Positions 5,301 to 27,652 of a stretch of DNA of 27,712 nt are shown one piece after another. Position 1 is the first letter of the stretch, and each line of letters begins with the position of its first letter. The stretch spans positions 1 to 27,712 of the IMG/VR virus record IMGVR_UViG_3300049617_000295; one strand, 5' to 3'. Origin of the DNA: a virus. Under the pieces are notes generated by a model, which was given only the letters and a program-made list of their open reading frames with translations, searched no databases and was not told the DNA's origin. The position numbers and the translations under genes were made by a program.

Positions 5301-8300
5301 GGTGCCGTTGCTGCCGACGGTGCCGGTGGCGACCACGGTGCCGGCATTCGTTACCGTGATGCGGTCACCGGGGGTGCCGGTGCCGACCAGGGTGGGTGTG
5401 GTGCTGTCAGTGCGGCTGTCGCCGAGCGTGCCGGTGTCGCTGCTGGTGGCGAGGCCGATGATGCTGGGCGCCGCGGGCTTGGCCGGAAGTGCATCAAGCA
5501 CGAGCGCGCTGGAGGGCGCGCTGCTGTTGCCGGCCAGATCGCGGCTGACCATCGCGGTGAGGGTGTTCTGACCCAGGGTCAGCGCGACCGTGTCGGCCCA
5601 GGCGCCGGTGCTGCTGGCGACCACGGTGCCGATGGTGGTGGTGCCGTCCATGATGGCGATCGTCGCACCCTGTTGGGTGGTGCCCGTCAGGACGATGGTA
5701 CCGGCGTTGGTGAGGTCGGTGCTGGTAATGGTGCCGGTGGTCGCGACGGCGTTGGTGATGGTCGGCGCGGCAACGGCGGTTTCGATAGTCAGCACGAGGG
5801 GAGACGAGACGATGCTACCGCTGATGCCGAGGCTGGCGATTGCGGTGAGCGTGTTGACCCCTTGCAGGAGCGCCGTGCCGGGCTGGAGGGCCCAGACCCC
5901 GCTGGCGTTGGCGGTGGTGGTCCCGATCGTGCCGCCGTTGTCGAGGACCGTGATCGCGGCGTTGGGGGTCGCGGTGCCGTCGATCTGCGGCTTGACGACG
6001 TTGGTGATGAGGTCTCCCAGGATGCCGCTGTCGCTGGCCGGGTCGAGTGCGAGCGTCGTCGCCGTGCCGGTCACAGTGATCGTGGCGCTGGCCGGGTTGC
6101 TGACGTCGCCGTACTGATCGGTGAAGACGGCGGTGATCGTGTTCAGGCCCAGCATCAGCTGGCTGGTCGGGGTAAAGACCGTTCCAGCCGCCGAGATCGT
6201 GCCGATGGCGCGGCCGTTGTCGTAGAAGCTGATGGTGCCGGCAGCATTCTCGCCGTACGTAATCGTGGGGGTCAGGCTTTTGGTTGTGCTGCCCGCGGTC
6301 AGCGAGAGTGAGGGCGCGGCGGGAACTGGGTTGATCGTCAAATTGTAGGCCGCCGATGCGCCGCTGGTGTTGCCCAGCAGGCCAGCTGCGGTGGCAACCA
6401 GCGTGGCCGGGCTCGCGACGATCGAGCCGCTGACGAACCAGGTGCCGTTGACCCCGACGATGCCGGTGCCGACCACCGCGGTGCCCTGGACCGCGCCGTT
6501 CGCATATTCGATCTGGGTCAGGGTGACGGTGTCGCCCGGGGTGCCGGTGCCGGTGAAGGTCGGTGTGCTGATATCGGTCGCGTTGTCGCCCAGGATGCCG
6601 CTGTCGGTCGCCGGGGTGATGCCCAGGATCGTCGGCGTGGCCGGCGGGACGAGGTCGGCGGTCAGCATCAGCGGCGACGAGGCGGCGCTGCTGTTGCCGG
6701 CCGCGTCGTTGGTCACCTTCGCGGTCAGCGCGTTGGTGCCTTGGCTGAGAATGACCTGCTCGGACCAGGTGCCGCTGCTGTTGGCGATGACGCTGCCGGG
6801 GGCGGTCACGAGGTTATCCGACACGACGATCGTGGTCCCGGCAGCGGCGGTGCCGCTGACGAGAACCGTGCCGGCGTTGGTGAGCAGGCCGGCGGTGACG
6901 ACGCCGCTGCTGGCCGCGACCGCACCGGTGATGGCGGGCGCGGCCGCCGTGGTCTCGATCGTCAGGTCGAGTGTGGTGGCGGCACTGATGTTGCCGACTG
7001 TATCGGTCGCGGTGGCAGTGAGGACATGCATACCAGGCGTCAGCACGGTCGGGACGGCGAACGACCAGTCGCCGAATTGATCGGTGCTGACGGTCCCCAG
7101 ATTGATGCCGTCGGCCGCGACGGTAATGATTTCCTTGGGCAGCGCCGCGCCGTCGATGACCGGGGACGTGAAATTCGTCAGATTATCGCCTACCATCCCG
7201 CTATCGCTGCCCGGATCGAGCGTGACGTTGGTGGGTGCCAGCGGTGGGGTGGTCTGGATGGTTACAACATAGACGCTGGAGGCCTGGCTGGTGAGACCGA
7301 CCGGGTCGGTGGCGACCGCTGTCAGGTTGTGGGCGCCGTTGGTGAGTGCCACCGTGCTGGTGACGGACCAACTACCGCTGGCGTTGGACACGGCACTGCC
7401 AATCGAGCTTGTGCCATCGTAGAGCACGATTGTGTCGTAAGGATCCGAGGTACCGTCGATCTCAACGTGGCGGACGTTGGTGATGCTGTCGCCGACCGTT
7501 CCGCTGTCGGTGCTGACATCAATGCCGGTAATGGCAGGTGTGTTGGGGCCGGTAGTGTCGATGACCACGGTGGACGAGTTGGAGGTGTTGCTCGACACGC
7601 CCGAGATGTCGAGGACTTCGGCCATGACGGTATGGGTGCCGCCGCTGAGTACCTGGCTGGCGGCGACGGTCCAGGCGCCACTGGCGTTGGCAATCGTTTC
7701 GCCGATCTGGGTATATCCGTCCATGTACAGCAGGACTTCGTCGCCGGCGACCGCGGTGCCGGTGAAAGACGGCGTCGTGCTGGTGGTGAAGCCCCTGGTG
7801 CCCACGAGCAATCCGGTGACGACCGGCGTTGCCGGGGTGGGTATGATCGTGTTGCCGAAGGTCGAGGCGCTCGCGCCCGTGAGGTAGGACGTAGCGCTAC
7901 CGACCGTCTCGAAACCGTTGCCCAGCGCTACGGCTGGGCTGTTACCGACGGTGACCAGGGTGTGGCCGTAGCCGTCCGGCGTGGGAGCGACGGTGACGGT
8001 GGTGCCGGCGGTGGGGGTGAAAACCTCGTAGCCGCTGTTGTCCGAGGCCCAGATGGTGATGGCCTGGCCGTCGGCGGCGATCGTGATGATGCCGTTGCTG
8101 GGATGCAGCGTGAGTGCACCGGCCTGGGTGAGCTTGATGTTGCTCAGGCCGCCGGTGACGGTCTCGCCCGCGTTGCCGCCGGAGATGGTGGCGTTGCCGG
8201 TGGCGAAGAGCAGGGAGACGGCGAGCGAGCCTGAGCCGCCCACGACGTCGAGATTGTTGGTGTCGTTGAAAGCGAACACCCCGGCCGCGCCACTGCCCCC

Positions 8301-8432
8301 CAGGATGGTGTCCGTACCAAGGCCGACCACGACCGAGGCGGCATTGCTGCCCAGCTGGACGACCGTGTTGCCGGTGTGGTCCTGCAGCAGCCCGCCGGCA
8401 CCGCCGTTGATGGTCGTGGTCGATCCGGACAT
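2400..8432 (-). CDS. Giant Ig-like repeat surface protein with RTX-like C-terminal region (adhesin/biofilm-type)
   Basis: A 2010-residue acidic, Gly/Ala/Thr/Ser-rich protein. Residues 1-195 are beta-rich with NGGxG-type turns and no signal peptide. Residues about 197-1568 are 14 tandem Ig-like domains of 87-108 residues, recognisable by recurrent SDSGxxGDxxTN, PxIDGTAxPN, NASGxWS and GxNTLTAxxTDxxGN blocks. The C-terminal 440 residues are Gly/Asn/Asp repeats including GTGSDTILLGSGNDYV (an RTX-type beta-roll), ending FNPTQDQIALW and TSSSFSAS. This architecture is typical of type I-secreted biofilm or adhesion proteins exported by a C-terminal signal; secretion is inferred because no T1SS genes are nearby. 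ATG at 8432 follows CGGAG at seven bases. It lies downstream of, and in the same direction as, the XRE regulator (142-bp gap), so cotranscription is possible. The exact ligand or role cannot be read. Confidence 0.85.
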   Translation of the reverse strand: MSGSTTTINGGAGGLLQDHTGNTVVQLGSNAASVVVGLGTDTILGGSGAAGVFAFNDTNNLDVVGGSGSLAVSLLFATGNATISGGNAGETVTGGLSNIKLTQAGALTLHPSNGIITIAADGQAITIWASDNSGYEVFTPTAGTTVTVAPTPDGYGHTLVTVGNSPAVALGNGFETVGSATSYLTGASASTFGNTIIPTPATPVVTGLLVGTRGFTTSTTPSFTGTAVAGDEVLLYMDGYTQIGETIANASGAWTVAASQVLSGGTHTVMAEVLDISGVSSNTSNSSTVVIDTTGPNTPAITGIDVSTDSGTVGDSITNVRHVEIDGTSDPYDTIVLYDGTSSIGSAVSNASGSWSVTSTVALTNGAHNLTAVATDPVGLTSQASSVYVVTIQTTPPLAPTNVTLDPGSDSGMVGDNLTNFTSPVIDGAALPKEIITVAADGINLGTVSTDQFGDWSFAVPTVLTPGMHVLTATATDTVGNISAATTLDLTIETTAAAPAITGAVAASSGVVTAGLLTNAGTVLVSGTAAAGTTIVVSDNLVTAPGSVIANSSGTWSEQVILSQGTNALTAKVTNDAAGNSSAASSPLMLTADLVPPATPTILGITPATDSGILGDNATDISTPTFTGTGTPGDTVTLTQIEYANGAVQGTAVVGTGIVGVNGTWFVSGSIVASPATLVATAAGLLGNTSGASAAYNLTINPVPAAPSLSLTAGSTTKSLTPTITYGENAAGTISFYDNGRAIGTISAAGTVFTPTSQLMLGLNTITAVFTDQYGDVSNPASATITVTGTATTLALDPASDSGILGDLITNVVKPQIDGTATPNAAITVLDNGGTIGTTTANASGVWALQPGTALLQGVNTLTAIASLGISGSIVSSPLVLTIETAVAAPTITNAVATTGTITSTDLTNAGTIVLTGTTQQGATIAIMDGTTTIGTVVASSTGAWADTVALTLGQNTLTAMVSRDLAGNSSAPSSALVLDALPAKPAAPSIIGLATSSDTGTLGDSRTDSTTPTLVGTGTPGDRITVTNAGTVVATGTVGSNGTWSAAITTALPVSATATLTATITDPFGTISGSSTAYDVTIDAIPAQPVIALASGIATTDSTEPQFSITSSNGLNNAVTIYDNGSLIGSLPSPQQSSTASFTPTAALPIGLNTIVAVASNAYGDVSNAGTAVVTVRPVAPTLDAGSDSGVAGDDITNVVNPQIDGVAVANAAISILDNSGSIGATTANAAGKWTFTPATAMVQGSNTLVAVVTVGAGNTVASDPLTITITTTAPAPVITGVVATTGTITSNDITNAGTVVLSGTAEQGATIAILEGSTTVGTVVSNNGSWSDPVGLVLGENTLTAAVRYDTAGNSSAASSPLVIDAISPVVAVPTISGLAPASQTGTGGTHTNLASPTLIGTGIVGDVVTLLSGTTVLGTGTVGSSGSWSVAVTTALPLGQDSITAEQTNLLGQTSAASVATTVTVSATPATPVISGISGAVASSGSVVATTANPTIVGTGPAGDLITLLNNGTILATTTAAATGSWSVQPSYNFNSGTYGLTAEATDAFGDISAQSAQLSVVVNLAKPVQIGTNLPFGIAANAAIPSEVTYYRYQQTPPTPAAGSSLGLTVDNSDLNDIITVPAATNVVSDVANGAVTLVGGGNNQLFLSTGSNATTTFESNGGSGVYLANQAAGGTSTTGNSLVTINNSAAGASGNYVVDTGSGTNVIQAITGNDSIAAGTGSDTILLGSGNDYVMNTGTDVVSCDTVTGGADTVNASADGNSIEIFANSSNLTFLGGTGGSVIIGGALPMNVLGWAGSDTVWGSSGGGQYWGGEAGNSYLEAGTGSGSCTLAGGNGNNNFLVADNAASDVLAAGGGYETLLGGSSTGGNQYFAGPGNTVIQAGLGNDVVTMDAGNTTVFAGAHTLTFADAPGIVVASSGQQTIMGGGPSEIYGFTSAAGGGSTLIVNFNPTQDQIALWNYSSSVLNAALAGQTTSGGNTTVTLPDNTRITFLGVQNVTSSSFSAS
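3725..4903 (-). repeat. Four-domain Ig super-repeat, unit 3 (domains 11-14)
   Basis: Third copy: A has GSDSGVAGDDITN and PQIDGVAVANA; B has DITNAGTVVLSGTAEQGATI; C has LIGTGIVGDVVTL and AVTTALPLG; the D domain is the most diverged (TDAFGDIS). The marker word is at 4537, 1164 bp from unit 2. Units 2 and 3 are more alike than either is to unit 1. Confidence 0.75.
4904..6063 (-). repeat. Four-domain Ig super-repeat, unit 2 (domains 7-10)
   Basis: Second copy: A has ASDSGILGDLITN and PQIDGTATPNA; B has DLTNAGTIVLTGTTQQGATI; C has LVGTGTPGDRITV and GSNGTWSAAITTALP; D has IYDNGSLIGSL and SNAYGDVSN. The marker word CCGGCGTTGGTGA is at 5701, exactly 1170 bp from its place in unit 1. Confidence 0.75.
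6064..7247 (-). repeat. Four-domain Ig super-repeat, unit 1 (domains 3-6)
   Basis: First of three tandem copies of an A-B-C-D block of Ig-like domains. A starts with GSDSGMVGDNLTN, B contains LLTNAGTVLVSGTA, C contains FTGTGTPGDTVTL, and D contains FYDNGRAIGTI and TDQYGDVSN. The DNA word CCGGCGTTGGTGA in the B domain is at 6871 on the plus strand. Boundaries are accurate to about 10 bases. Confidence 0.7.
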
Positions 8433-10636: not shown

Positions 10637-11989
10637 TTGACAAAATGGGTGACGGAGGTGCTGCGGCCGGCGGGCCTGGAACCGGCGCGTCACCACCTGA
10701 TGCTCCTTGCGGCGCTGGAGGATGTGGCGGCGGGGATCACCGATCGGCTGATGCTGCTGATGCCGCCTGGTTCGGCGAAGTCTACGTACACCTCGGTGCT
10801 GTTTCCGCCCTGGTGGCTGACGCGCCATCCGGCGAGTTCGATCATTGCGGCCTCGCACACCGCCGACCTGGCGGCACATTTCGGACGCCAGGTGCGCGCA
10901 ACGGTGCGCGAGCATCAGGAACAGCTAGGCTACACAATCGCTGACCGCGGTGGCGGAGCGGCGACACGCTGGCAGACATCGACCGGCGGGCAGTATTTCG
11001 GCACTGGCGTGCGCGGGCCGATGATCGGCCGGCGCGCTGATCTGGTGATTATCGACGACCCGGTGAAGTCCCACCACGAAGCCGATAGCGCGCGGGCGCG
11101 CGCAAGGCTTTGGGAGTGGTATCGGGCCGAACTGCTGACACGCTTACGGCCGGGTGCACGCGTGGTCCTGATCATGACACGCTGGCACCTCGACGATCTC
11201 GGCGGTCGGTTGCTGGCGCAGGATCACGAGGACTGGCGCTGCCTGCGACTGCCGGCGGTGGCCGAAGCGGAAGACCCGATGGGCCGTGCGCCGGGTGAGC
11301 CGCTTTGGCCGGAGTGGGAAGATGCCAAAGCGCTCGCCCGCAAGCGTGCGGCGGTCGGTGAGCGGACATGGTCGGCGCAGTATCAACAGCGACCGATGCC
11401 GCTGGACGGTACACCATTCCCTATCGAGCGATTCGATCTGGTCAGCCGTCCGGCCACGTTGGTGGGTGCCCCGGTCGTGCGCGCCTGGGATTTGGCTGCC
11501 ACGCCGATGGGCGCGAATGGCGACCCGGACTGGACCGTTGGTCTGAAACTGCTTCGTGAGCAGAGCGGTCGTTTCGTGGTGCTGGATTTGGTGCGGTTCC
11601 GCGGATCGCCTTTGGCGGTGGAGCAGACCATTCTGCGCACGGCTATCGAGGATGGCGGGACGGTTACCATTGGCATTCCGCAGGATCCGGGGCAGGCGGG
11701 CAAGTCGCAGATCGGCGCGTTGACAGGCCTTCTGGCGGGGTTCCGCGTGGTCTCCTCACGAGAGACGGGATCGAAATGGGTGCGGGCGTTGCCCGTGGTC
11801 TCGCAGGTCGAGGCCGGCAACTTTGCCCTGGTGCGTGCCGACTGGAATGCTGACTTCCTTGAAGAGCTGCGCGATTTTCCACATGGCGCCAAGGATGACC
11901 AAGTAGACGCCCTGTCGCGCGCCTTCACCCTGCTGCTGGAACAGGGTGCTGCGGCGCGGCGCATCGACGTGCCGCTGCTGCAGCGCTGA
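10637..11989 (+). CDS. terL: Phage terminase large subunit
   Basis: A 450-residue packaging motor (ATPase plus nuclease) of the type whose C-terminal domain is modelled as TIGR01630. Walker A is MPPGSAKST (residues 42-50), Walker B is ADLVIIDD (134-141), and a coupling motif follows at IMTRWHLDDLGG (179-190). The nuclease half begins at VRAWDLAAT and ends GAKDDQVDALSRAF, which carries the late acidic metal-binding residues. The start is uncertain: TTG 10637 gives a protein lacking the first part of the usual N-terminal helix, and the frame is open back to 10535 with homologous-looking sequence (AAPRDSLTKWVTEVL) but only TTG or CTG codons. It is followed 18 bp later by portal. Confidence 0.93.
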   Translation: MTKWVTEVLRPAGLEPARHHLMLLAALEDVAAGITDRLMLLMPPGSAKSTYTSVLFPPWWLTRHPASSIIAASHTADLAAHFGRQVRATVREHQEQLGYTIADRGGGAATRWQTSTGGQYFGTGVRGPMIGRRADLVIIDDPVKSHHEADSARARARLWEWYRAELLTRLRPGARVVLIMTRWHLDDLGGRLLAQDHEDWRCLRLPAVAEAEDPMGRAPGEPLWPEWEDAKALARKRAAVGERTWSAQYQQRPMPLDGTPFPIERFDLVSRPATLVGAPVVRAWDLAATPMGANGDPDWTVGLKLLREQSGRFVVLDLVRFRGSPLAVEQTILRTAIEDGGTVTIGIPQDPGQAGKSQIGALTGLLAGFRVVSSRETGSKWVRALPVVSQVEAGNFALVRADWNADFLEELRDFPHGAKDDQVDALSRAFTLLLEQGAAARRIDVPLLQR

Positions 11990-12007: not shown

Positions 12008-13426
12008 ATGTTCGAGACAATTTGCGACTTGGTGCCGCGCGACCGCGATCTGTCGCAACGTGCCCGCATGCTGGACATTCTGCGCCGCGTGCTGGACGGC
12101 ACCATCTACGATGTTCTACGGCATGAATTCCACGAGGAGCGTACTGCCGGCGGTGAATATATCCCGCTGCGTGCGCGGCGGCCAAGCGTGCGTTACGGTC
12201 TGTGCCGCGTGGTGGTGGAAGATAGCGTCGCACTGCTGTTCAGCGAGGGGCATTTCCCGACCATCGATTGCGCGGACCGCGCGTTGCAGGCTCGCCTGTC
12301 CGACCTGGTGAAGGAAACCAGACTCAACCAAGTGATGATCGAGGCGGCGATACGTGGCAGCATCGGCTCGGTAGCGATCCTGCTGCGGGTGCTGCGTGGC
12401 CGGGTGTTCTTTAGCGTGCTTGATACGGCGAACCTGGAGCCGGTATGGGACCACGAGGCGCCGGATACCCTTGTGTCTGTTCGGGAACGATACAAGGTGG
12501 CCGGGCACCTGCTGGCCGAAAGCGGCTACGCAATCACCGAACCGGCTGCCGATTATTGGTTCACGCGGCAATGGGACGCCAACGACGAGACTTGGTATGA
12601 GCCGGTCCAGGTTGGCGTTGCTGCCGAGCCCGAGATTGATCTGCCACGATCGGTGCGGCACGGGCTGGGCTTCGTGCCATTGGTCTGGGTGCGCAACCTG
12701 CCGGGTCCGGCGGCGACCGGATCGACGCTGGATGGTGCCTGCACTTTTCGTCCTGCGGTCGAGACCTCCATTGAAATCGACTACCAGTTGAGCCAGGCGG
12801 GGCGCGGGCTTAAGTACAGCAGCGACCCGACGCTGATTATCAAGGAGCCTGCGGGATCGGACGGCGAGATCATCAAAGGCGGCGGCAACGCCTTGGTGGT
12901 GAGCGAAAAGGGCGACGCCAAGCTGCTGGAGATAGGCGGGACGGCATCGGCGGCGGTCATTGAATACGTTCGTACTTTGCGCGAGTTGGCGTTGGAGAGC
13001 CTGCATGGCAGCCGCGCCAACCCCGATCGTTTGACCGCCGCACAATCCGGCCGCGCGCTGGAGATGCTGAACCAAGGGCTGATCTGGCTCGCCGACAATC
13101 TGCGCGTCAGCTACGGCGAGGGTGCGTTGGTTGCCCTGATGCGCATGGTCTTGCGCGCCGCTCAGGTCTACCGGCTCCAGATCCTGGGAGACGAGCTGTA
13201 CAAGCCCGATCCCGACATACGGCTCACTTTGAAGTGGCCGCGCTGGTACCCGCTCACTGCCGAAGATCGGCTGCGCGACGCGCAGACACTTGCGACGCTG
13301 ATTTCTAATGGGACGATCTCGCGGGAGACCGCGCTGAAGGCAGTCGCCGATTCCTATGACCTTGAGGACATCGCGGCCGAGCTGACGCGTATCGCTACCG
13401 ATCGACGCAACCACAGGAAGCACTGA
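12008..13426 (+). CDS. Phage portal protein (SPP1 gp6-like)
   Basis: A 472-residue protein. It forms the dodecameric ring at the capsid vertex through which DNA enters and to which the tail joins. Supporting blocks are the stem-clip region RLSDLVKETRLNQVMIEAAI with RGSIGSVAILLRV, the wing FVPLVWVRNLPGP, SIEIDYQLSQAGRGLKYSSD, and the crown-side sequences SGRALEMLNQGLIWLADNLR and LKWPRWYPLTAEDR. The ATG follows AAGGA at five bases. The stop overlaps the next start (TGATG). Position after terminase and before scaffold and capsid fits. Confidence 0.85.
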   Translation: MFETICDLVPRDRDLSQRARMLDILRRVLDGTIYDVLRHEFHEERTAGGEYIPLRARRPSVRYGLCRVVVEDSVALLFSEGHFPTIDCADRALQARLSDLVKETRLNQVMIEAAIRGSIGSVAILLRVLRGRVFFSVLDTANLEPVWDHEAPDTLVSVRERYKVAGHLLAESGYAITEPAADYWFTRQWDANDETWYEPVQVGVAAEPEIDLPRSVRHGLGFVPLVWVRNLPGPAATGSTLDGACTFRPAVETSIEIDYQLSQAGRGLKYSSDPTLIIKEPAGSDGEIIKGGGNALVVSEKGDAKLLEIGGTASAAVIEYVRTLRELALESLHGSRANPDRLTAAQSGRALEMLNQGLIWLADNLRVSYGEGALVALMRMVLRAAQVYRLQILGDELYKPDPDIRLTLKWPRWYPLTAEDRLRDAQTLATLISNGTISRETALKAVADSYDLEDIAAELTRIATDRRNHRKH

Positions 13427-13869: not shown

Positions 13870-15192
13870 ATGGGCATCCAAAACTTTCCGACCGCTTTGC
13901 AGCCGATCATCCAGCAGGGCTTCCTGGAACGGGAGTTCGAGCAGGCGCTGCGGTCGCGCCTTGGCTACCGTGCGGTTGCGGACCGCGAGGAGATCGCAGT
14001 CGGTATCGGTGAGACCTTGACCAAAACCCGCGCCGGGCTGAAGCCGAGCGTGACGACGCCGATGGCGGCGGCGTCGAACACCAACCTGGACAACGGGTTG
14101 ACCTCCACCACCTGGGCGGTTGAGCAGTATACGCTTTCGATCAACAGTTACGCGGCCACCACCGATCTGAACATGGTGACTAGCCGTGTCGGCATCGCGA
14201 GCCAGTTCCTGCAGAATGCCTATGTGAACGGCGAGCAGGCTGCCCGCAGCCTGGACGAGCTGGCGCGCAATGCCCTGTTCGGCGCCTATTTCGGCGGCAA
14301 CACGCGGGTGCGCACCACGTTGGGTTCGGCTGGCACCTCGGTTGCGGTCGATGACATTCGTGGCTTTACCTCTACCTTCGTCTATGGCGTTCCGACAACG
14401 GTGAGCGCGAGCGCACCGTTGACGGTGACGATCGGCAGTGATGCCTACCAGTTGGTTGGCACTTCGGCGGATGCAACCAACGTTTCGACCGCGCCGAACG
14501 GCATTTCTGGAACACTGACGCTTGCCAGCAGCGTTTCTGTGGCTGATGGCACTGCCGGGAATACTGTGCAGTCCGCCACCGCTTCAGTGATCGTGCGCCC
14601 TTCGGACCGCGGCAACACCGCCGACCTTCAGGCCACCGATACGCTGACGATGTCCAACCTGCTGGACGCCGTGGCGACGCTGCGGGCCAATGCCGTGCCG
14701 GAGATCGACGGCGTCTATAATTGCTATCTCGATCCGGTTTCCGCCCGCCAGCTGTTCGCCGACCCAGACTTCCGGCAATTGTTCCAGGGTGCGACGTCGG
14801 CGAACCAGGTCTTCCGCCGCGGCATGGTGAACGACTTCCTGGGCCTACGTTTCGTCACCACAACAGAATCGTTCGTGCAGACCCATCCGACCCTGACGGG
14901 TCTGCTGGTCCGCCGGCCGATCGTCTGCGGCCAAGGTGCGCTGATCGAGGGTGATTTCGCGGGCATGGCCGCCGACGACGTGGCGCCCAAAGATTCGATC
15001 ATCGCCATTGTGGACGGCGTGGCGATGGTCACGCGTGAGCCGCTGGATCGACTGCAGCAGATCATCGCCCAATCCTGGTACTGGATCGGCGGCTTCTGCG
15101 CGCCGACTGATACGACCACGAACAGCACCACAATCCCGACCGCCAGCAACGCCGCTTACAAGCGCGCGGTGATGATCGAGCATATCGGCTAG
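13870..15192 (+). CDS. Major capsid protein (HK97-fold, N4-gp56-like)
   Basis: A 440-residue protein. Its N-terminal segment (ALQPIIQQGFLEREFEQALR), the E-loop-like stretch containing GLTSTTWAVEQYTLSINSYA, and the C-terminal LIEGDFAGMAADDVAPKDS and REPLDRLQQIIAQSWYWIGG fit capsid proteins of the N4-gp56/P22-like group. Residues about 160-265 are a Thr/Ser/Val-rich beta domain (GSAGTSVAVDDIRG to ATASVIVRP) inserted in the fold, as accessory I-domains are. The ATG has GAGGA five bases upstream. No cleavage protease gene accompanies it, consistent with assembly on a separate scaffold. Confidence 0.85.
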   Translation: MGIQNFPTALQPIIQQGFLEREFEQALRSRLGYRAVADREEIAVGIGETLTKTRAGLKPSVTTPMAAASNTNLDNGLTSTTWAVEQYTLSINSYAATTDLNMVTSRVGIASQFLQNAYVNGEQAARSLDELARNALFGAYFGGNTRVRTTLGSAGTSVAVDDIRGFTSTFVYGVPTTVSASAPLTVTIGSDAYQLVGTSADATNVSTAPNGISGTLTLASSVSVADGTAGNTVQSATASVIVRPSDRGNTADLQATDTLTMSNLLDAVATLRANAVPEIDGVYNCYLDPVSARQLFADPDFRQLFQGATSANQVFRRGMVNDFLGLRFVTTTESFVQTHPTLTGLLVRRPIVCGQGALIEGDFAGMAADDVAPKDSIIAIVDGVAMVTREPLDRLQQIIAQSWYWIGGFCAPTDTTTNSTTIPTASNAAYKRAVMIEHIG

Positions 15193-17401: not shown

Positions 17402-17590
17402 ATGGATACGCAACTGGTTGTGGTGAGGCCGTTTGCCGGCTTTGCCCGCGGCGCCGTGGTCACGGACCCGGCGCAGGTAAAGGCCATTCTGGCCGGTGAG
17501 CATGCGCTGAATGTGGTGCGTGTCCTGGGTGCGGGCGCTGCCAAACCGCAGTCGCCGGCGCCCTTAGCCGGCAAGCAGGGAGGCCGTTGA
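17402..17590 (+). CDS. Small phage protein upstream of tail sheath
   Basis: A 62-residue protein, MDTQLVVVRPFAGFARGAVV followed by TDPAQVKAILAGEHALNVVR and a Pro/Gly/Lys-rich tail. The pattern (FxxxxRGxVVTDPxxVxxIL) is common in small proteins placed before sheath genes in contractile-tail phages, where a short neck or sheath-accessory protein is expected. GGGAG lies five bases before the ATG, and its TGA overlaps the sheath ATG. No function is established. Confidence 0.6.
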   Translation: MDTQLVVVRPFAGFARGAVVTDPAQVKAILAGEHALNVVRVLGAGAAKPQSPAPLAGKQGGR

Positions 17591-19167
17591 TGCCGATTGT
17601 ACAGCAAGGCAGCATCAATACCACCGCGCTGGTGGTGCCGGATCTGTATGTACAGATCGTGCCGCCGCAGAATCTCGTGCTGAATGGCGTACCAACCGAC
17701 GTTGTCGGGATCGTGGGCAGCGCTTCCTGGGGTCCGATCGGCCAGCCAGTGATCGTGGCGACGATGGCTGATTACGCCAGCCAATTCGGCCCGGTGGTTG
17801 CCCGCACTTACGACATGGGCACGCAGGTGGCGACCGCCGTCCAGCAAGGTGCGCAGAACTTCCGCTGCGTGCGCGTGACTGATGGGACCGATACGGCGGC
17901 GCAGAGTCTGGTGCAGAGTTCGTCCAGCACCGATTATGCCCTGCTGTTGACCGCTGCATACACCGGCACGCTCGGCAATTCGTTGGTGGCCAGCGTGAGC
18001 AACGGATCAGCGGCCCAGACCTGGCGGCTGACGATAACGCTGCCGGGACTGCAGCCTGAGCTGTTCGACAACATCCCCGGCACGGACCTACAGCTTTGGC
18101 AGAATATGGCCAACGCGGTGAACAATGGACTGAGCCTGCAGCGTGGTCCGTCGCAGTTGGTGACTGCGCAGGTCGGTTCTGGCAACTCCGTCGGCGGTAT
18201 GCCTGTGGTGGCCAGCTATACATTCGCGAATGGCACCGACGGCGCGGCCAGCATTACCGCGGCGAACTTGGTTGGTTCCGATACCCTGCCTCGGACGGGG
18301 ATGTATGCCCTGCGCGGACAGGGCTGCAGCCTCGGACTGCTTGCTGACTCGACCGACTCGACACAGTGGAGCGTGCAGGCTGCCTTCGGCCTTTCCGAGG
18401 GTGTGTATATGATCCTGACCGGTCCGGCCGGCGACAACATCCAGAATGCGGTCAGAGTTGCCGCGTCTGCCGGGTTGGATAGCTATGCGGCTAAGCTGAT
18501 GTTCGGCGACTGGCTCTATTGGTCCGACCAAGTGAATAACACGGTCCGTCTGGTTTCGCCGCAAGGCTTCGTCGCGGGCCGGTTGGCGAATTTGTCGCCC
18601 GAGCAGTCGAGCCTGAACAAGCAGCTTTACGCCATCGTCGGTAGCCAGAAGTCAGGCACGCCGGGTTCGGGTCAGGCGACGACTTATGCCTCGGCCGATC
18701 TGGCGGCGCTGCTGAGCGCGGGGATCGACGTGATCGCGAACCCGCAGCCAGGTGGCGCTTACTGGGGCGTACGTGGCGGCCATAATTCCAGCACCAATAC
18801 TGCCATCAACGGTGACAACTACACGCGCCTGACGAACTACATCGCAGCGACCCTGGCCGCCGGCATGGGCCAGTATGTCGGCCAGGTGATCAATGCCCAG
18901 CTGTTCCAGAACATCCGATCGACGCAGCTGAGCTTCTTTCAGAACATGCTGTCGCAGGGGATGCTGGGCAGCACCGACGGTTCCCTGCCGTTCAGCGTGG
19001 TGTGCGACACGTCGAACAATCCGACCAGCCGAACGCAACTTGGATATGTGCAGTCCGATGCACAGGTGAACTACCAGGCGATCAACGAGAAGTTTATCGT
19101 CAACATTGAAGGCGGCCAGACGGTCGAGGTGAGTCGGCAGACACTGCCGAGCGGACAGTCGAGCTGA
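17590..19167 (+). CDS. Phage tail sheath protein
   Basis: A 525-residue contractile sheath subunit. Family features are the N-terminal GIVGSASWGPIGQPVIVATM and YASQFGP, the middle domain, and the C-terminal core with GGAYWGVRGGHNSS, NGDNYTRLTNYIAATLAAGM, IRSTQLSFFQNMLSQGMLGS and a final strand (INEKFIVNIEGGQTVEV) that links neighbouring subunits. The presence of this gene fixes the phage as myovirus-like. I chose ATG 17590 (GGGAGG six bases upstream, overlapping the previous stop) over TTG 17587. Confidence 0.93.
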   Translation: MPIVQQGSINTTALVVPDLYVQIVPPQNLVLNGVPTDVVGIVGSASWGPIGQPVIVATMADYASQFGPVVARTYDMGTQVATAVQQGAQNFRCVRVTDGTDTAAQSLVQSSSSTDYALLLTAAYTGTLGNSLVASVSNGSAAQTWRLTITLPGLQPELFDNIPGTDLQLWQNMANAVNNGLSLQRGPSQLVTAQVGSGNSVGGMPVVASYTFANGTDGAASITAANLVGSDTLPRTGMYALRGQGCSLGLLADSTDSTQWSVQAAFGLSEGVYMILTGPAGDNIQNAVRVAASAGLDSYAAKLMFGDWLYWSDQVNNTVRLVSPQGFVAGRLANLSPEQSSLNKQLYAIVGSQKSGTPGSGQATTYASADLAALLSAGIDVIANPQPGGAYWGVRGGHNSSTNTAINGDNYTRLTNYIAATLAAGMGQYVGQVINAQLFQNIRSTQLSFFQNMLSQGMLGSTDGSLPFSVVCDTSNNPTSRTQLGYVQSDAQVNYQAINEKFIVNIEGGQTVEVSRQTLPSGQSS

Positions 19168-19180
19168 AGGAACGTAACAC

Positions 19181-19609
19181 ATGCCGATCAATAACTTTAA
19201 TATCGGTCGCGACTGTCAGCTCGTGCTGATCGGACCGGCCGGACGGGTAGACCTGTCGTACGTGACAGGGTTCGAAAGCCGGCAGATCACTCATTCGATC
19301 CGAGTTGACAAGCTGGACGGCACACAGATTTCTGCTGAGCTGCCGCGCGGATGGGAAGGCACATTTGAACTCGAACGCGGCACCTCCGCAGCCGACGACT
19401 TTATCGCGGCAGCGGAGCAGTCCTACTTCAACGGGGACGGCGTGCCGTTTGGAACAGTCTATCAGTACGTAACCGAGACTGATGGATCGATCTCAACATA
19501 TCAATATAACACCGTCGTTTTCAAGCTGGCCAACGCGGGCAATTGGAAAGGCGATGCCAGTGTGAAGCAGAAGCTTGAATTCTTCGCGTCGCAGAGACAG
19601 CGCGTATGA
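19181..19609 (+). CDS. Phage tail tube protein
   Basis: A 142-residue protein immediately after the sheath gene: MPINNFNIGRDCQLVLIGPA, with VTGFESRQITHSIRVDKLDG, LPRGWEGTFELERG and WKGDASVKQKLEFFA. These beta-sandwich features and the position match the inner tube subunit of contractile tails. AAGGA precedes the ATG, and its stop overlaps the next start (ATGA). Typical length for the family is about 140-170 residues. Confidence 0.85.
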   Translation: MPINNFNIGRDCQLVLIGPAGRVDLSYVTGFESRQITHSIRVDKLDGTQISAELPRGWEGTFELERGTSAADDFIAAAEQSYFNGDGVPFGTVYQYVTETDGSISTYQYNTVVFKLANAGNWKGDASVKQKLEFFASQRQRV

Positions 19610-19959
19610 TCGGCGGACCATCCGCTCAGATCATCGCGAGCACCGGTCAGCCGAACGTTGTGACCGCTGCCGATGGACGGCGTCTGACGCTGCGGCGCAT
19701 GAATGCCCTCGACAAACTGCGGATCTTCAAGGCGGCTGGGCCGATGCTATCTCAAAATGAGCCGTGGTTGGGCATGGCACTGTTGGCATGTTCGGTTCTT
19801 GCGATCGACGACGTGCCGGTGCCCGTGCCCGCCAACGAGCAGCAGATTGAGGCATTGGTCGCACGGTTGGGCGACGCCGGAATCGCCGCTGCTGCTTCCG
19901 CGTTAACTACACATGAGACGGCTGACCCGCAGGCGATGGTGGCGTCCGCGGGAAACTGA
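19606..19959 (+). CDS. Tail assembly chaperone, short form (lambda gpG-like role)
   Basis: A 117-residue protein, starting MIGGPSAQIIASTGQPNVVT and with LRRMNALDKLRIFKAAGPML and a helical C-terminus. Between tube and tape-measure genes in long-tailed phages the assembly chaperone is encoded in two overlapping frames; here the short product ends with Gly-Asn then TGA at the slippery heptamer GGGAAAC (19950-19956). The start overlaps the tube stop. It would coat the tape measure during tail assembly and is not expected in the virion. Confidence 0.75.
   Translation: MIGGPSAQIIASTGQPNVVTAADGRRLTLRRMNALDKLRIFKAAGPMLSQNEPWLGMALLACSVLAIDDVPVPVPANEQQIEALVARLGDAGIAAAASALTTHETADPQAMVASAGN
19950..19956 (+). 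promoter_or_regulatory. Probable -1 ribosomal frameshift site (GGGAAAC)
   Basis: The heptamer is in the correct phase for simultaneous slippage (G GGA AAC to GGG AAA) and is followed directly by the zero-frame TGA (19957-19959). It fits the X XXY YYZ rule and differs from the lambda G/GT site, GGGAAAG, only in the last base. The -1 frame then stays open for 57 codons. No strong pseudoknot is seen; two short stem possibilities follow the stop. Confidence 0.75.
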
Positions 19960-20129
19960 GTCGGCACCCCGATCTGATCGACTGTCTTTACCTAGTGAAG
20001 AACGGGGTGCCGTTCGATGTGGCTTTCTCGCTGCCGCCGGATGAGCGGCTTGCGTACGTCGTAGTCCTGGGGACCTTACAGGGCAGCAGTTTCGATTGGG
20101 TGCATCTGCGTTGGGAGGAGGAACGTTGA
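19956..20129 (+). CDS. Tail assembly chaperone, -1 frame extension (lambda gpT-like part)
   Basis: This 57-codon stretch in the -1 frame begins LSRHPDLIDCLYLVKNGVPF and ends FDWVHLRWEEER before TGA at 20127-20129. It has no ATG and no ribosome site of its own at the beginning, and continues directly from the slippery site, so it is expected as the C-terminal part of a 174-residue fusion. The end of this frame overlaps the next start (TTGA). The sequence is well formed (mixed helix, charged C-terminus) and unlike an out-of-frame shadow. Confidence 0.7.
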   Translation: MSRHPDLIDCLYLVKNGVPFDVAFSLPPDERLAYVVVLGTLQGSSFDWVHLRWEEER

Positions 20130-20509
20130 GGCAGTTGCTGGAACGGCTGCGGGTGTTGGAGCGTTCGTTGCAGGCCCTTGATCTCGAAGCCGTACGCCAA
20201 TCGGCCGGCCAGGCGATCGCCCAGCGGATCGAGGCGACTGTGGCGGACAGCTTGTCCCATCGGCCAGGTGATGAGCATGGCAACCCATGGCAACGCACCG
20301 GCACATTGCGCGCCAGCATTGGAAGTAAGGTCACGGCGAATGCCATCGTGGTAGGTTCCACCGACCCTGCAGCGGTCTTTCAGGAAGAGGGAAGCCGGAC
20401 GGTGCCGCCACGACCGTTCCTGGCACCAGCCGGCAGCGCGGCTGCCACGGGGGCGATCCAAGCTCTCGGCACCGCGACAGCTGAGGCGTTGCGGGAGGCC
20501 CTACGATGA
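20126..20509 (+). CDS. HK97 gp10 / gpS-like tail completion or morphogenesis protein
   Basis: A 127-residue protein: N-terminal helix (RQLLERLRVLERSLQALDLE), then NPWQRTGTLRASIGSKVTAN, VVGSTDPAAVFQEEGSRTVP and PRPFLAPAGSAAA. The triplet TGxLRxSI, VGS...A.xxExGxxxxPPRPFL is the signature of HK97 gp10-like and phage virion morphogenesis proteins that act in tail completion. The TTG at 20126 is chosen because GGAGGAGG (20114-20121) is just upstream and it overlaps the previous stop; no ATG is in a better position. Its stop overlaps the next ATG (ATGA). Confidence 0.75.
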   Translation: MRQLLERLRVLERSLQALDLEAVRQSAGQAIAQRIEATVADSLSHRPGDEHGNPWQRTGTLRASIGSKVTANAIVVGSTDPAAVFQEEGSRTVPPRPFLAPAGSAAATGAIQALGTATAEALREALR

Positions 20510-21624
20510 ACGATGCATATACCGTCGGGCTGACGCTGGCGCTGGAAGATGGTGTATCAGCGGGTATCGAGACGATCCGCCGCGAGTTGGGTGCGCTGGA
20601 TCAAGCGATTGTTGCGTCGACCGCCAACTTGGTTCGCCTGCAAGAAGTGGCTCGCGGGGCGGTGAACGCAGGAGTGGCGCAGGCTGGCGCCATGGCGGCG
20701 CTGACGCGGGAATCGGCCGCAGCGGCAGCGCGGCAAGCGGCAGTGCCACCACGGACGCCGGTTGTGACCATGCCGGATGCAGCCTCCGCAGGTCCGGCGG
20801 CGCAAACCGGAACGCAGGACGCAGCGATTGCGACCCCGCCGCGGGCCTCAATGGCGGCCACCACCCAAGACGACGGCGAGGCGGCCCCCGCCGCACCTGT
20901 CATGAGGGCGAGCGCCGAGCCTTCCCCGCAGACACCGAAGACTTCCAGCGCTGCCGTTGTAGGCGCGCCAGTCCAAGGCTTGGCCGCTGGGATAGCCCAA
21001 GCGGCTGCACCGATAACGGTTGCACCGGCGGCCGCGTTCGAGCAGCCGGTGCGGGCGCGGCCGATTGCGGCCGAGCCCCCGGTTTCGATGGTGCCTTCGC
21101 CAGCGATTCGTGAGCCATCCGCGCCGCCGGCGCCTATGCCGACGTCGCTGACAATGATCGAACCGCCGGCACCACCGACTGCGCCACCACCATCGATCGG
21201 GATAGCGGCAATGCCGGTGGCGCTGCCGGTCGCATCTGAGAGAAGGCAGTCTGATCAAGCTGCGGCACCCGTGACGCGGATTGAAACCGCGGCCCCGGCG
21301 GCTTTCTTCGAAGCACCTCGACAGCCCGACATGACACCGGCGCCGAGCATGGCGCCGCCGCCCCGTGGCTCGCCAATGCCGCCGACGACCGAGCCGTCGC
21401 GTCGGCCGCCTCATCGGGAGCATGCTGCATCGGTGGCGCCCCGGCAGGCGACCGACCGCCACCGGGAGCAGGCGATGTCGGGGACAATCGTGATCGACGG
21501 TACGGAGTTGGGCCGCTGGATGGCCGACTATCTTGCCCATGCCGCTAGCCGGCCGCCGAGTGGTGGGGTCGGATTTGATCCGCGCATGACGCCGGTCTGG
21601 GCGGGTGCGCCGATCGGAGCGTGA
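20506..21624 (+). CDS. Short proline-rich tape-measure candidate
   Basis: A 372-residue protein in the place where the tape-measure gene is expected, between assembly chaperone/gp10 and baseplate genes. N-terminal residues 1-75 are helical and Ala-rich (YTVGLTLALEDGVSAGIETI, then RELGALDQAIVASTANLVRL), like tape-measure N-termini. The middle is an unusually Pro/Ala-rich region (about 80-320). The end is SGTIVIDGTELGRWMADYLA with a short C-terminal tail. It lacks the hydrophobic segments and long coiled coils usual in tape measures and is much shorter than most. Function is inferred from position; it could instead be a chaperone or baseplate-associated protein, with no true tape measure in the window. 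Confidence 0.55.
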   Translation: MNDAYTVGLTLALEDGVSAGIETIRRELGALDQAIVASTANLVRLQEVARGAVNAGVAQAGAMAALTRESAAAAARQAAVPPRTPVVTMPDAASAGPAAQTGTQDAAIATPPRASMAATTQDDGEAAPAAPVMRASAEPSPQTPKTSSAAVVGAPVQGLAAGIAQAAAPITVAPAAAFEQPVRARPIAAEPPVSMVPSPAIREPSAPPAPMPTSLTMIEPPAPPTAPPPSIGIAAMPVALPVASERRQSDQAAAPVTRIETAAPAAFFEAPRQPDMTPAPSMAPPPRGSPMPPTTEPSRRPPHREHAASVAPRQATDRHREQAMSGTIVIDGTELGRWMADYLAHAASRPPSGGVGFDPRMTPVWAGAPIGA

Positions 21625-24626: not shown

Positions 24627-25751
24627 GTGCAGTTGTCATTGCAGAATTTTACCACGTTGGTGCAGAACGCAGCGGCCTCGGTGCAGGCTTCATCGTCGCA
24701 ACTGCTGGACCTGACAGTCGGTTCTGCGTTGCGAGCGGTGCTGGAGGCAAACGCATCCCTGGGGCTGTGGATGCAATGGCTGATTGTGCAGGTCATGCAG
24801 GTGACGCGTGCGGCGACCAGCGTGGGCACGGATCTTGATACCTGGTTGGCCGATTACGGGGTCTCTCGTCTGCCGGCGGTCGCAGCCACGGGAACGGTGA
24901 CGGTGGGGCGCTACACGGCGCTTGGTAGCGCTGTGGTGCCGTTTGGGGCGGTGGTGCGGACCCAAGACGGCTCGCAGAGTTTTGCGGTGACGACCGACCC
25001 GACAGTGCCTGGCTACAATTCGGCCCTCGGCGGATATGTTATGCCGGCCGGCACGTACAGCATCGACGTGCCGGTAGCGGCCCAGACTGCAGGGCAAAGC
25101 GGCAACGTGCTGGCGGGTACTATCACTCTGCTGGTCTCGGCGACGCCTGGCCTGGACACAGTGGTGAATCAGGGGCCGCTTACAGGCGGCATTGACGTGG
25201 AGTCAGATGCGGCTGTACGAACCCGTTTTCAGAGCTTCCTGGATACCCGGTCGCAGGCGACACCGACGGCTGTCGGCTACGCGGTGCAAGGTGTGCAGCA
25301 AGGTTTGACTTATCTTCTCCAAGAAAACGTCAATACAAGCGGCGCAGCGCAATTGGGAAACTTCGTCGTTACGGTCGACGATGGGAGTGGCAATCCATCC
25401 TCGAATGTAATTACGGCAGTGAACAGCGCGGTCGACCTCGTGAGGCCCGTCGGAACGACCTTCACCGTTCAAGGCCCGGTTGTGACAGCGGCCAATGTAT
25501 CGATGACGCTTGGGCTGCCGGCTTCGGCGGACCGTCCATCGGCGGCCGCGGCCGTGACGGCGGCGGTGACGACCTATATCAACGCATTGGCGGTGGGTGC
25601 TCCGCTAGCTCTGACGCGCCTGGCGCAGGTCGCCTATGATGCCTGGCCGCCGGTCAGTAACGTGAGCAACCTGACGATCAATGGGAGCGGCGCCGACCTG
25701 GTGGTGCCCCCCAACGGTGTGGTCAAGGCCGGTTTGGTGTTGGTGAGCTGA
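24627..25751 (+). CDS. Baseplate J protein (gpJ-like)
   Basis: A 374-residue protein of the baseplate J family (P2 gpJ; T4 gp6). Blocks seen are LTVGSALRAVLEANASLGLW, GTDLDTWLADYGVSRLPAVA, ATGTVTVGRYTALGSAVVPF, GAVVRTQDGSQSF, VPVAAQTAGQSGNV and GIDVESDAAVRTRFQSFLDT. GTG 24627 has AGGAGG eight bases upstream. Its TGA overlaps the next ATG (TGATG). Normal length for the family. Confidence 0.9.
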   Translation: MQLSLQNFTTLVQNAAASVQASSSQLLDLTVGSALRAVLEANASLGLWMQWLIVQVMQVTRAATSVGTDLDTWLADYGVSRLPAVAATGTVTVGRYTALGSAVVPFGAVVRTQDGSQSFAVTTDPTVPGYNSALGGYVMPAGTYSIDVPVAAQTAGQSGNVLAGTITLLVSATPGLDTVVNQGPLTGGIDVESDAAVRTRFQSFLDTRSQATPTAVGYAVQGVQQGLTYLLQENVNTSGAAQLGNFVVTVDDGSGNPSSNVITAVNSAVDLVRPVGTTFTVQGPVVTAANVSMTLGLPASADRPSAAAAVTAAVTTYINALAVGAPLALTRLAQVAYDAWPPVSNVSNLTINGSGADLVVPPNGVVKAGLVLVS

Positions 25752-26422
25752 TGACCGGCGATCAGTCCGACATGGTTTCTCGGCTGAAGGCCGTCCTGCC
25801 GCCAGCTTGGTTTCCTGACACGACGCCCGTGCTCGACAGCTTGCTGTCCGGCCTTGGGAGCGTATGGTCCTGGGTATACGCGCTGATCGCCTTTGTCGGG
25901 CAGCAGACGCGCATAGCGACAGCGGGCGGTGTTTGGCTTGACATGATTGCGAACGATCTGTTTGGGGCCAGTCTCCAACGCAATCAGGGCGAAGCTGATG
26001 ATCCGTTCCGAAACCGTATCACGCAAGAGATCACGCGCACCCGCGGCACTCGTGCGGCGATCATCGCCACTCTGACCGACCTGACTGGCCGGGCGCCGAC
26101 AGTGTTTGAGCCAGCGCGTTCAGCCGATACCGGCGGATGGGGTTCGCAGTCCGGCGGCTTTAATGGCTTCGCGTATGGGGAGGCTGGTGGCTGGGGCAAC
26201 CTGGATATGCCTTTCCAGGTGCTGGTGACAGCCTACCGCCCGGCCGGGACCGGCATTGCGTATGTGAGCGGCTGGGGTGGTCCCGGCGGCTACGGCGTGG
26301 GACCGATCGAGTATGGCGACGAGGCCATGATCGAGGGATCGGTCACGGATGCCGATATCTACGCCGCCGTGGCGGCCGTTCTGCCGACGACTGCGACAGC
26401 CTGGACCCAAATCAGCAACTGA
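25751..26422 (+). CDS. Tail protein I-like (P2 gpI / Mu gp48-like) baseplate protein
   Basis: A 223-residue protein immediately after gpJ, where gpI is expected. N-terminal residues carry RLKAVLPPAWFPDTTPVLDS and helices, then GVWLDMIANDLFGASLQRNQ and DPFRNRITQEITRTRGTRAA, followed by a Gly/Tyr-rich beta region (GGWGSQSGGFNGFAYGEAGG, SGWGGPGGYGVGP). The N-terminal part resembles the gpI/gp48 family; the Gly-rich region is unusual in length. ATG overlaps the gpJ stop, and its own stop leads into the interrupted tail fibre gene. Confidence 0.75.
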   Translation: MTGDQSDMVSRLKAVLPPAWFPDTTPVLDSLLSGLGSVWSWVYALIAFVGQQTRIATAGGVWLDMIANDLFGASLQRNQGEADDPFRNRITQEITRTRGTRAAIIATLTDLTGRAPTVFEPARSADTGGWGSQSGGFNGFAYGEAGGWGNLDMPFQVLVTAYRPAGTGIAYVSGWGGPGGYGVGPIEYGDEAMIEGSVTDADIYAAVAAVLPTTATAWTQISN

Positions 26423-26580: not shown

Positions 26581-26583
26581 CTC
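26572..26583. repeat. IS630 left terminal inverted repeat
   Basis: GTGCTCTGACTC, complementary at ten of twelve bases to the right end. It follows the TA duplicate at 26570-26571 and overlaps the stop of the truncated fibre frame and the last bases of the transposase gene. Confidence 0.8.
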
Positions 26584-27652
26584 ATACGGACCGTGCAGAC
26601 AGTCTGTCGAGCTTGGCCAGGATCGAGGTGGCCGATGCGGTCCAGACGAATGGCTTTGGCTCGGCGTTGTGCTCGGTAAGGTAGCGCTTGATGGCGGCTT
26701 GCAGATCGACCAACGAGTGGAAGCTGCCGCGGCGGATGCGCTTGCGCGTCAACACGGAGAAGAAGTTCTCGACGGCATTCAGCCATGATCCGGAGGTTGG
26801 TGTGAAGTGGAAGGTCCATCGCGGATGGCGTTCGAGCCAGGCCTTTACCTTCGGATGCTTGTGGGTTGCGTAGTTGTCGACCACGGCTTCGATCAGCTTA
26901 CCTGCGGGGACGGCGCGCTCGACCTCGTTGAGGAAGCGGATGAATTCCTCGTGCCGGTGTTGCTGCATGCAACGGCCGATGACTGTGCCGTCGAGCACGT
27001 TGAGCGCCGCAAACAGCGTCGTCGTGCCATGGCGCTTATAGTCGTGGGTCATCGTGCCGCAGCGGCCGGGCTTGATCGGCAGGCCCGGTTGCGTGCGGTC
27101 CAGCGCCTGGATCTGACTCTTCTCGTCGATCGACAGCACGACCGCCTGCGTCGGCGGGTCCAGGTAGAGGCCGACGATATCGGTCAGCTTGGCCGCGAAG
27201 TCGGGGTCGCGCGATCGCTTGAACGTGCGCACGCGATGCGGCTGCAGCTTGTGCGCCTGCCAGATGCGTTGCACCGACGCCAGCGAGATGCCGGCGGCAC
27301 GGGCCATCGCCCGGCCGGTCCAGTGTGTTGCCTGGTGCGGCGGCTCGGCGCAGGTCAGCGCCACGACGCGCGCCACCGTCTCGGCGGCAATCGGCGGTTT
27401 GCCGGGCTTGCGGGTCTTGTCGCGCAGCAGCCCGTCCGGGCCTTCCTCGGCGAAGCGCCGTTGCCAGCGCCACACCATCGGACGACTGACGCCCAGACGC
27501 GTCGCCACCACTTGCACCGGGTCGCGCCTCGCTGCCGCGAGCACGACCCTTGCCCGCTCGACATGCTTTTGCGGCCGGTTGCGGTCGGCGACGATCGCCT
27601 CAAGCATCTGTCTGTCCGACGAACTCAGGATCACGCATACCGTCTGTGCCAT
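26582..27652 (-). CDS. IS630-family transposase
   Basis: A 356-residue protein. The N-terminal winged helix-turn-helix is at about 28-72 (ARVVLAAARRDPVQVVATRL, VSRPMVWRWQRRFAEEGPDG). The DDE catalytic core follows: D176 in VVLSIDEKSQIQ, D259 in AVVDNYATHKH and E295 in SWLNAVENFFSVLTRK. All three acidic residues are intact, so the enzyme may be active. ATG 27652 is at the promoter end of the element, and the stop at 26582 lies ten bases from the left end, typical of IS630. Confidence 0.95.
   Translation of the reverse strand: MAQTVCVILSSSDRQMLEAIVADRNRPQKHVERARVVLAAARRDPVQVVATRLGVSRPMVWRWQRRFAEEGPDGLLRDKTRKPGKPPIAAETVARVVALTCAEPPHQATHWTGRAMARAAGISLASVQRIWQAHKLQPHRVRTFKRSRDPDFAAKLTDIVGLYLDPPTQAVVLSIDEKSQIQALDRTQPGLPIKPGRCGTMTHDYKRHGTTTLFAALNVLDGTVIGRCMQQHRHEEFIRFLNEVERAVPAGKLIEAVVDNYATHKHPKVKAWLERHPRWTFHFTPTSGSWLNAVENFFSVLTRKRIRRGSFHSLVDLQAAIKRYLTEHNAEPKPFVWTASATSILAKLDRLSARSV

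Follow-up and report, generated by a model that had tools for sequence, protein, structure and literature searches.

This locus raises the question of how a reading frame that opens beyond the stop codon of a short gene, and that shows no evident start of its own, comes to be translated. We analyzed the whole stretch of DNA (hereafter the window), which comprises the 27,712 bases of IMG/VR record IMGVR_UViG_3300049617_000295. The short frame occupies positions 19606..19959 of the plus strand and encodes 117 amino acids with the C-terminus AGN. Its 3' end reads GCG GGA AAC TGA, which places a slippery heptamer, G GGA AAC, in frame at 19950..19956 (plus strand) and the short-form stop directly after it (TGA, 19957..19959, plus strand). 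The -1 frame extension (19956..20129, plus strand) begins with a CTG codon on the last base of the heptamer and remains open for 57 codons. After a -1 shift on G GGA AAC, the extension reads LSRHPDLIDCLYLVKNGVPFDVAFSLPPDERLAYVVVLGTLQGSSFDWVHLRWEEER up to the TGA at 20127-20129, and the fusion is 174 amino acids long (117 + 57). A preliminary description of the locus had given the same coordinates, open -1 frame, and fusion length, all of which were correct, and had also noted that the extension lacks a start. Consistent with this, ATG is absent from the extension, and the earliest of its internal GTG codons is extension codon 14. GGGAAAC is found at two places on the plus strand of the window and is not rare or remarkable by itself; the evidence is that it lies in frame where a 34-nt overlap between the two frames ends, and that it is conserved. 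On the comparative sequence evidence given below, a programmed -1 ribosomal frameshift very probably yields two forms of a tail assembly chaperone.

The locus belongs to a prophage-like module for a contractile tail. Genes for the terminase (10637-11989), portal (12008-13426), and major head protein (13870-15192) precede the sheath gene (17587-19167; phrog_23), which is followed by a tail tube-like gene (19181..19609, plus strand; phrog_12993) whose tube role we infer from its position after the sheath. The tube-like gene lies directly upstream of the short frame, and the start of the short frame at 19606 overlaps its stop at 19609. Next downstream of the extension is an HK97-gp10-like, or tail completion, gene (20126..20509, plus strand; phrog_5, E = 6e-12), with a ribosome-binding sequence, GGGAGGAGG, at 20113-20121 within the end of the extension. 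This gene likely starts at a TTG that overlaps the stop codon of the fusion. It is followed by a putative short tape-measure gene of 372 amino acids (20506..21624, plus strand). The tape-measure assignment is probable by position, and family searches of the protein returned no match. The middle of this product is rich in Pro and Ala, and the counterpart gene in phage phiKX2 encodes approximately 742 amino acids. The gene order is thus sheath, tube-like, chaperone, HK97-gp10-like, and the presumed tape measure; a gene intervening before the tape measure is known from HK97 and KL1 (PMC3483164).

Baseplate genes lie downstream of the chaperone region, the last of them at 25751-26422. Close behind it is a transposase-like reading frame on the minus strand (26582-27652), which may have cut off the tail fiber region. 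Toward the other end of the window, a minus-strand reading frame of 2010 amino acids (2400-8432) contains numerous Ig-like repeat units, has a C-terminal part rich in glycine and aspartate, and looks adhesin-like when judged by eye. Because it adjoins EgtB-like (339-1934) and SCO1-like (1700-2365) reading frames, the left third of the window looks like host DNA. The virus is a contractile-tailed phage of Acetobacteraceae and is probably temperate.

The short form matched phrog_20383 (E = 5e-21), a family of unknown function, and sequence searches with the fusion against Pfam, NCBIfam, and the PDB returned no match. The short form of one relative weakly matched the phrog_508 tail assembly chaperone (E = 0.0065). 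At the level of structure, the AlphaFold (AF2) model of the short form had a pLDDT of 86, and its best Foldseek match in the PDB was the HK97 tail assembly chaperone (2OB9), a weak match with E = 0.33, probability 0.60, and TM 0.43. Matches among viral models included the Gemini and Finch tail assembly chaperones and Mu FS-gp41, with E values of 0.01-0.03 and probabilities up to 0.99. For the extension, the model shows a compact and largely helical domain (pLDDT 91), whose best match was an uncharacterized protein, A0A6J5SEC2 (TM 0.70). No single named match is strong, and the product is likely to be a tail assembly chaperone because its predicted fold, its position after the tube gene, and the frameshift agree.

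Scans of IMG/VR, GTDB genomes, and annotated phages gave 241 homologous loci. Both parts were readable in 240 of these, and the other one, L022, stops at a contig edge before the extension. The two parts stood in a -1 relation in 191 of 191 distinct loci from IMG/VR, Acetobacteraceae genomes, and phage phiKX2. We removed near-identical sequences, loci of a clade with a longer linker, and one exceptional locus (L128) to obtain 169 representatives. Conservation of the heptamer and the -1 extension, which had been proposed as a check on the frameshift, was borne out by the constant -1 relation and by the presence of a slippery heptamer in every representative: GGGAAAC in 151, AAAAAAC in 16, and GGGAAAT and AAAAAAA in one each. 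The exchange of GGG for AAA replaces Gly with Lys in the protein and retains slipperiness. Since the encoded residue changes and the site is still slippery, we argue for selection on the heptamer at the RNA level. We also scanned IMG/VR with a pattern blind to protein, in which AAACT and the hairpin described below were fixed and the first three letters of the heptamer were free. All 77 distinct matches had either GGG (64) or AAA (13) at these letters, and all encoded the same extension. Mean column identity in an alignment of extensions was 63%.

Prophages of acetic acid bacteria that resemble phiKX2 have low protein identity to the window, and every one of the 26 distinct loci carries AAAAAAC with TGA or TAA after it. 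For phiKX2 itself (L082, 5989-6530), the only annotated relative that we examined, the published annotation gives two separate hypothetical proteins, one per frame. Its AAAAAAC-TGA and conserved hairpin indicate a putative single, frameshifted gene. Relatives that lack the heptamer and keep both frames had been named beforehand as a case against frameshifting. One such relative was found, set against 169 representatives with a slippery heptamer. This locus, L128, comes from a metagenome-assembled genome (JAFKFJ010000279) and retains the sheath, the tube, both parts, and their -1 relation, but its positions 3266-3445 contain no X XXY YYZ heptamer (CAT TTT CCG is in its place) and the stem is weaker. 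It is the only relative found with the -1 relation and without the heptamer, and it may be decayed, misassembled, or a user of single-tRNA slippage. In a further prophage copy, L282, a one-base length change in the extension (near 2300-2400) shifts the sequence beyond it out of frame, and this copy is probably decayed.

Downstream of the heptamer we found a hairpin that is a putative stimulator of frameshifting. Its 5' arm, CGGCACCCCG, occupies 19962..19971 and its 3' arm, CGGGGTGCCG, occupies 20003..20012 (both plus strand), with a 31-nt loop between them. The 10-bp stem has a z-score of -3.44 relative to shuffled sequences. The spacer between heptamer and hairpin (19957..19961, plus strand) is 5 nt, or 6 nt to an 8-bp core, and 5 nt falls in the canonical range of 5-9 nt for -1 frameshift stimulators (PMC5009743). 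All eight core pairs formed in 154 of the 169 representatives and seven formed in the other 15. As a null expectation, we replaced the six stem codons with synonyms drawn according to background usage, which gave a mean of 2.6 and a maximum of 9 fully paired representatives across 300 simulations. The Val codon of the 3' arm was GTG in 169 of 169 representatives and its Gly codon was GGG in 166 of 168. Val and Gly codons elsewhere vary widely, and the next Pro codon, which has its third base outside of the core stem, varies freely. Likewise, the third base of extension codon 3 was G in all 169, though the amino acid was R, G, E, S, V, W, or Q. A consensus fold recovered the stem unaided as a simple hairpin, and 98.8% of cells were paired in the true register versus 35-49% with the partner slid. 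The core stem was part of the minimum-energy structure in 80 of 80 sequences, and a median of only 1.8% of neighboring 56-nt segments were equally stable.

The main clade contained no double-sided compensatory change in the stem, and its variation was mostly from C-G to U-G and from G-C to G-U. Covariation is absent there because the arms hardly vary, and support for the stem in this clade thus comes from synonymous constraint and energy. Accordingly, we turned to remote clades for covariation. In the L075/L079 clade (9 distinct), the heptamer is either GGGAAAC or GGGAAAT, and an unrelated hairpin with a short loop, GCGCGGCCGG / CCGGCCGCGC, starts approximately 6 nt past it. Across 8 sequences of this clade, three pairs were changed on both sides, which is supportive rather than decisive evidence from a small set. 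Most phiKX2-like loci retain a GGCACCCC/GGGGTGCC stem, and a subclade has other pairings at the same place. In a group of acetic acid bacteria prophages (L278-L281 and L268-L269), RHP..GVP has been replaced by RSP..GI(A/P), and different bases restore the stem.

We considered an H-type pseudoknot, which can but need not serve as the stimulator of such a cassette, and rejected it, as synonymous positions in the region 3' of the hairpin (codons 20-38) vary as background. The earlier remark that no strong downstream pseudoknot is apparent held insofar as there is no sign of a pseudoknot partner, but it overlooked the strong simple hairpin. Upstream of the heptamer, the window has no AGGA, GGAG, or GAGG at -22 to -4 that could represent a Shine-Dalgarno sequence, an optional stimulator of bacterial -1 frameshifting. 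Across the family, such tetramers were present at these positions in 70 of 169 representatives (41%) versus 13% in the background, an approximately threefold excess. An upstream tetramer of this kind is a possible extra stimulator in part of the family, and shared ancestry possibly accounts for the excess as well.

The stop codon next to the heptamer had been suggested to raise frameshifting through pausing of the ribosome. As a main stimulator it would be compatible with the frameshift itself, and a stop (TGA, TAA, or TAG) does directly follow the heptamer in 136 of 169 representatives, as well as in every distinct phiKX2-like locus. There is also precedent in pea enation mosaic virus, where a stop 3 nt on is important for frameshifting (PMC5009743). 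However, the other 33 representatives have TCG, TTG, TCA, or TTA at this position, with the next stop in the 0 frame exactly six sense codons further. These 33 keep both heptamer and hairpin, and the adjacent stop is therefore dispensable. Nor was selection for the stop through choice of Leu codon clearly distinct from background: where the second codon of the extension starts with A, the first was CTG in 123 of 143 extensions, compared to 116 of 145 for CTG before A in the background. Moreover, in E. coli, a stop placed behind the slippery site of HIV reduced frameshifting, and extra RF2 abolished it (PMC4373837). The suggested effect of the stop is thus doubtful, and we regard it as unlikely to be a main stimulator. 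A more elaborate possibility is that the hairpin acts as a switch under regulation, for instance through a phage protein that binds it or through the level of RF2, and thereby sets the ratio of short to long chaperone during infection. This reading would rest on the nearly fixed hairpin sequence of the main clade and on the presence of a stop before or inside the hairpin. A switch is not required, because conserved amino acids fix most stem positions and pairing fixes the rest, and we judge it very unlikely.

Other explanations dispense with ribosomal frameshifting altogether. Given that the window is a metagenomic virus contig and that L282 carries an indel-like change in its extension, the second frame could be attributed to a sequencing or assembly indel, or to a decayed gene. 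The extension nonetheless evolves under purifying selection in the -1 frame, with a median pN/pS outside the stem codons of 0.27 in this frame and of 1.6 and 1.9 in the other two. In addition, 191 distinct loci, drawn from isolate genomes and numerous projects, share the -1 relation at the identical base. We assign next to no probability to an indel or decay at this locus, and for the family as a whole it is already refuted by conservation. The extension could alternatively be an independent small gene translated from an internal start, a view that its internal GTG codons permit and that the phiKX2 annotation follows by giving it a reading frame of its own. Against this, extension codons 1-13 contain ATG in 2 of 169 representatives and any of ATG, GTG, or TTG in 58, and no ribosome-binding site is visible before the first GTG of the window. 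A separate gene would also leave unexplained why the heptamer switches from GGG to AAA as a unit and why the hairpin is held at a fixed spacing, all of which makes it extremely improbable. We attach a similarly slight probability to slippage during transcription as the source of the second frame. The AAAAAAC variants do provide a run of six A, on which RNA polymerase can slip, but no run in the predominant GGGAAAC is longer than three bases, and an RNA hairpin at 5 nt combined with an in-frame X XXY YYZ is a hallmark of ribosomal -1 frameshifting (PMC5009743).

Choice of heptamer may reflect the tRNAs of the host. XXXAAAG sites are very slippery in E. coli because one tRNA-Lys reads both AAA and AAG, and slipping at XXXAAAG is expected to be poor where a second lysine tRNA reads AAG (PMC5009743). 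We examined five host-type genomes with relatives of the locus (Limobrevibacterium, Rhodopila, Acidisoma, and two Acidisphaera). A tRNA-Lys(UUU) motif was present in all five and a tRNA-Lys(CUU) motif in four, with an exact-motif search for the latter failing in the remaining genome. ARAGORN confirmed the CUU gene in four genomes and the UUU gene in each of the five. Not a single distinct locus had AAAG at the shift site. A dedicated tRNA-Lys(CUU) in the hosts plausibly explains the use of AAAC rather than the AAAG of lambda, an agreement that fits this explanation without constituting a test of it.

The preliminary description had likened the locus to the lambda G/GT frameshift, and this comparison is upheld by the conserved slippery site and -1 extension, the chaperone-like fold, and the adjoining tube gene. 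Under programmed frameshifting, the majority of ribosomes would terminate at TGA to give the 117-residue short form, which by reference to lambda gpG would coat the tape-measure protein. When a ribosome is positioned on G GGA AAC, the 10-bp hairpin 5 nt on would lie at the mRNA entrance and resist unwinding. A minority of ribosomes would then re-pair on GGG AAA and continue in the -1 frame to give the 174-residue form, whose 57 extra residues, by reference to lambda gpGT, would recruit the tube protein. On the same analogy, neither form would be part of the virion. Plausibly, AAAG is not used because the dedicated tRNA-Lys(CUU) of the hosts would read AAG and not slip. We infer the slipping itself, its rate, and the roles of both forms, and, by analogy, their ratio, essentiality, and binding partners.

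Frameshifted tail chaperones are well known in tailed phages, and the window adds a well-supported example that is new but not surprising. Its analysis gives a likely function to the unnamed family phrog_20383 and its -1 extension, and the frameshift cassette of heptamer and hairpin is traceable through about 200 relatives. Among them are natural variants that either carry or lack the adjacent stop, that use one or the other of two interchangeable heptamers, or that form one of two unrelated hairpins. Such variants are ready-made material for studying the effect of a stop after a slippery site in bacteria. The host tRNA sets further suggest a testable rule for the use of XXXAAAC versus XXXAAAG by phages.

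The shift site of lambda G/GT is GGGAAAG. As proposed for the window, lambda makes a short chaperone and a low level of a -1 fusion from genes beside those for the tube and tape measure (PMC5009743). The window differs from lambda in its GGGAAAC, in the conserved hairpin at 5 nt, in the stop directly after the site, and in its contractile tail, as indicated by the sheath gene. The HK97 chaperone (2OB9) is the best solved-structure match of the short form, albeit weak and with no match at the sequence level. Mu FS-gp41 is among the best viral fold matches (E = 0.015), also without a match at the sequence level; Mu is contractile too, and its frameshift is of another type. The dnaX cassette of E. 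coli includes an upstream Shine-Dalgarno stimulator, whereas the window has no clear one. The dnaX heptamer is also different, A_AAA_AAG, and is combined with a downstream stem-loop (PMC5009743, PMC7282821).

A precedent is provided by gp18/gp19 of Burkholderia phage KL1, with a predicted -1 site of GGGAAAC directly before the short-form TGA (PMC3483164). We confirmed the GGGAAAC-TGA site in the KL1 sequence record, and KL1 was not among the matches of a tblastn search with the window protein. Like the window, KL1 has a short form ending in AGN, a gene intervening before the tape measure, and a predicted downstream stem-loop. Unlike the window, its extension is approximately 122 residues long, it is called a siphovirus, and the local structure predicted over 60 nt of its sequence is weaker, at -7.8 kcal/mol. 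Tail-chaperone frameshifting measured in reporters was 6-7% (PMC3711429). In the g-t genes of the haloarchaeal viruses HCTV-1 and HCTV-2, the shift sites are G_GGA_AAC and A_AAA_AAC (PMC5009743), which are the same two heptamers that interchange in the family of the window, here in different viruses with archaeal hosts.
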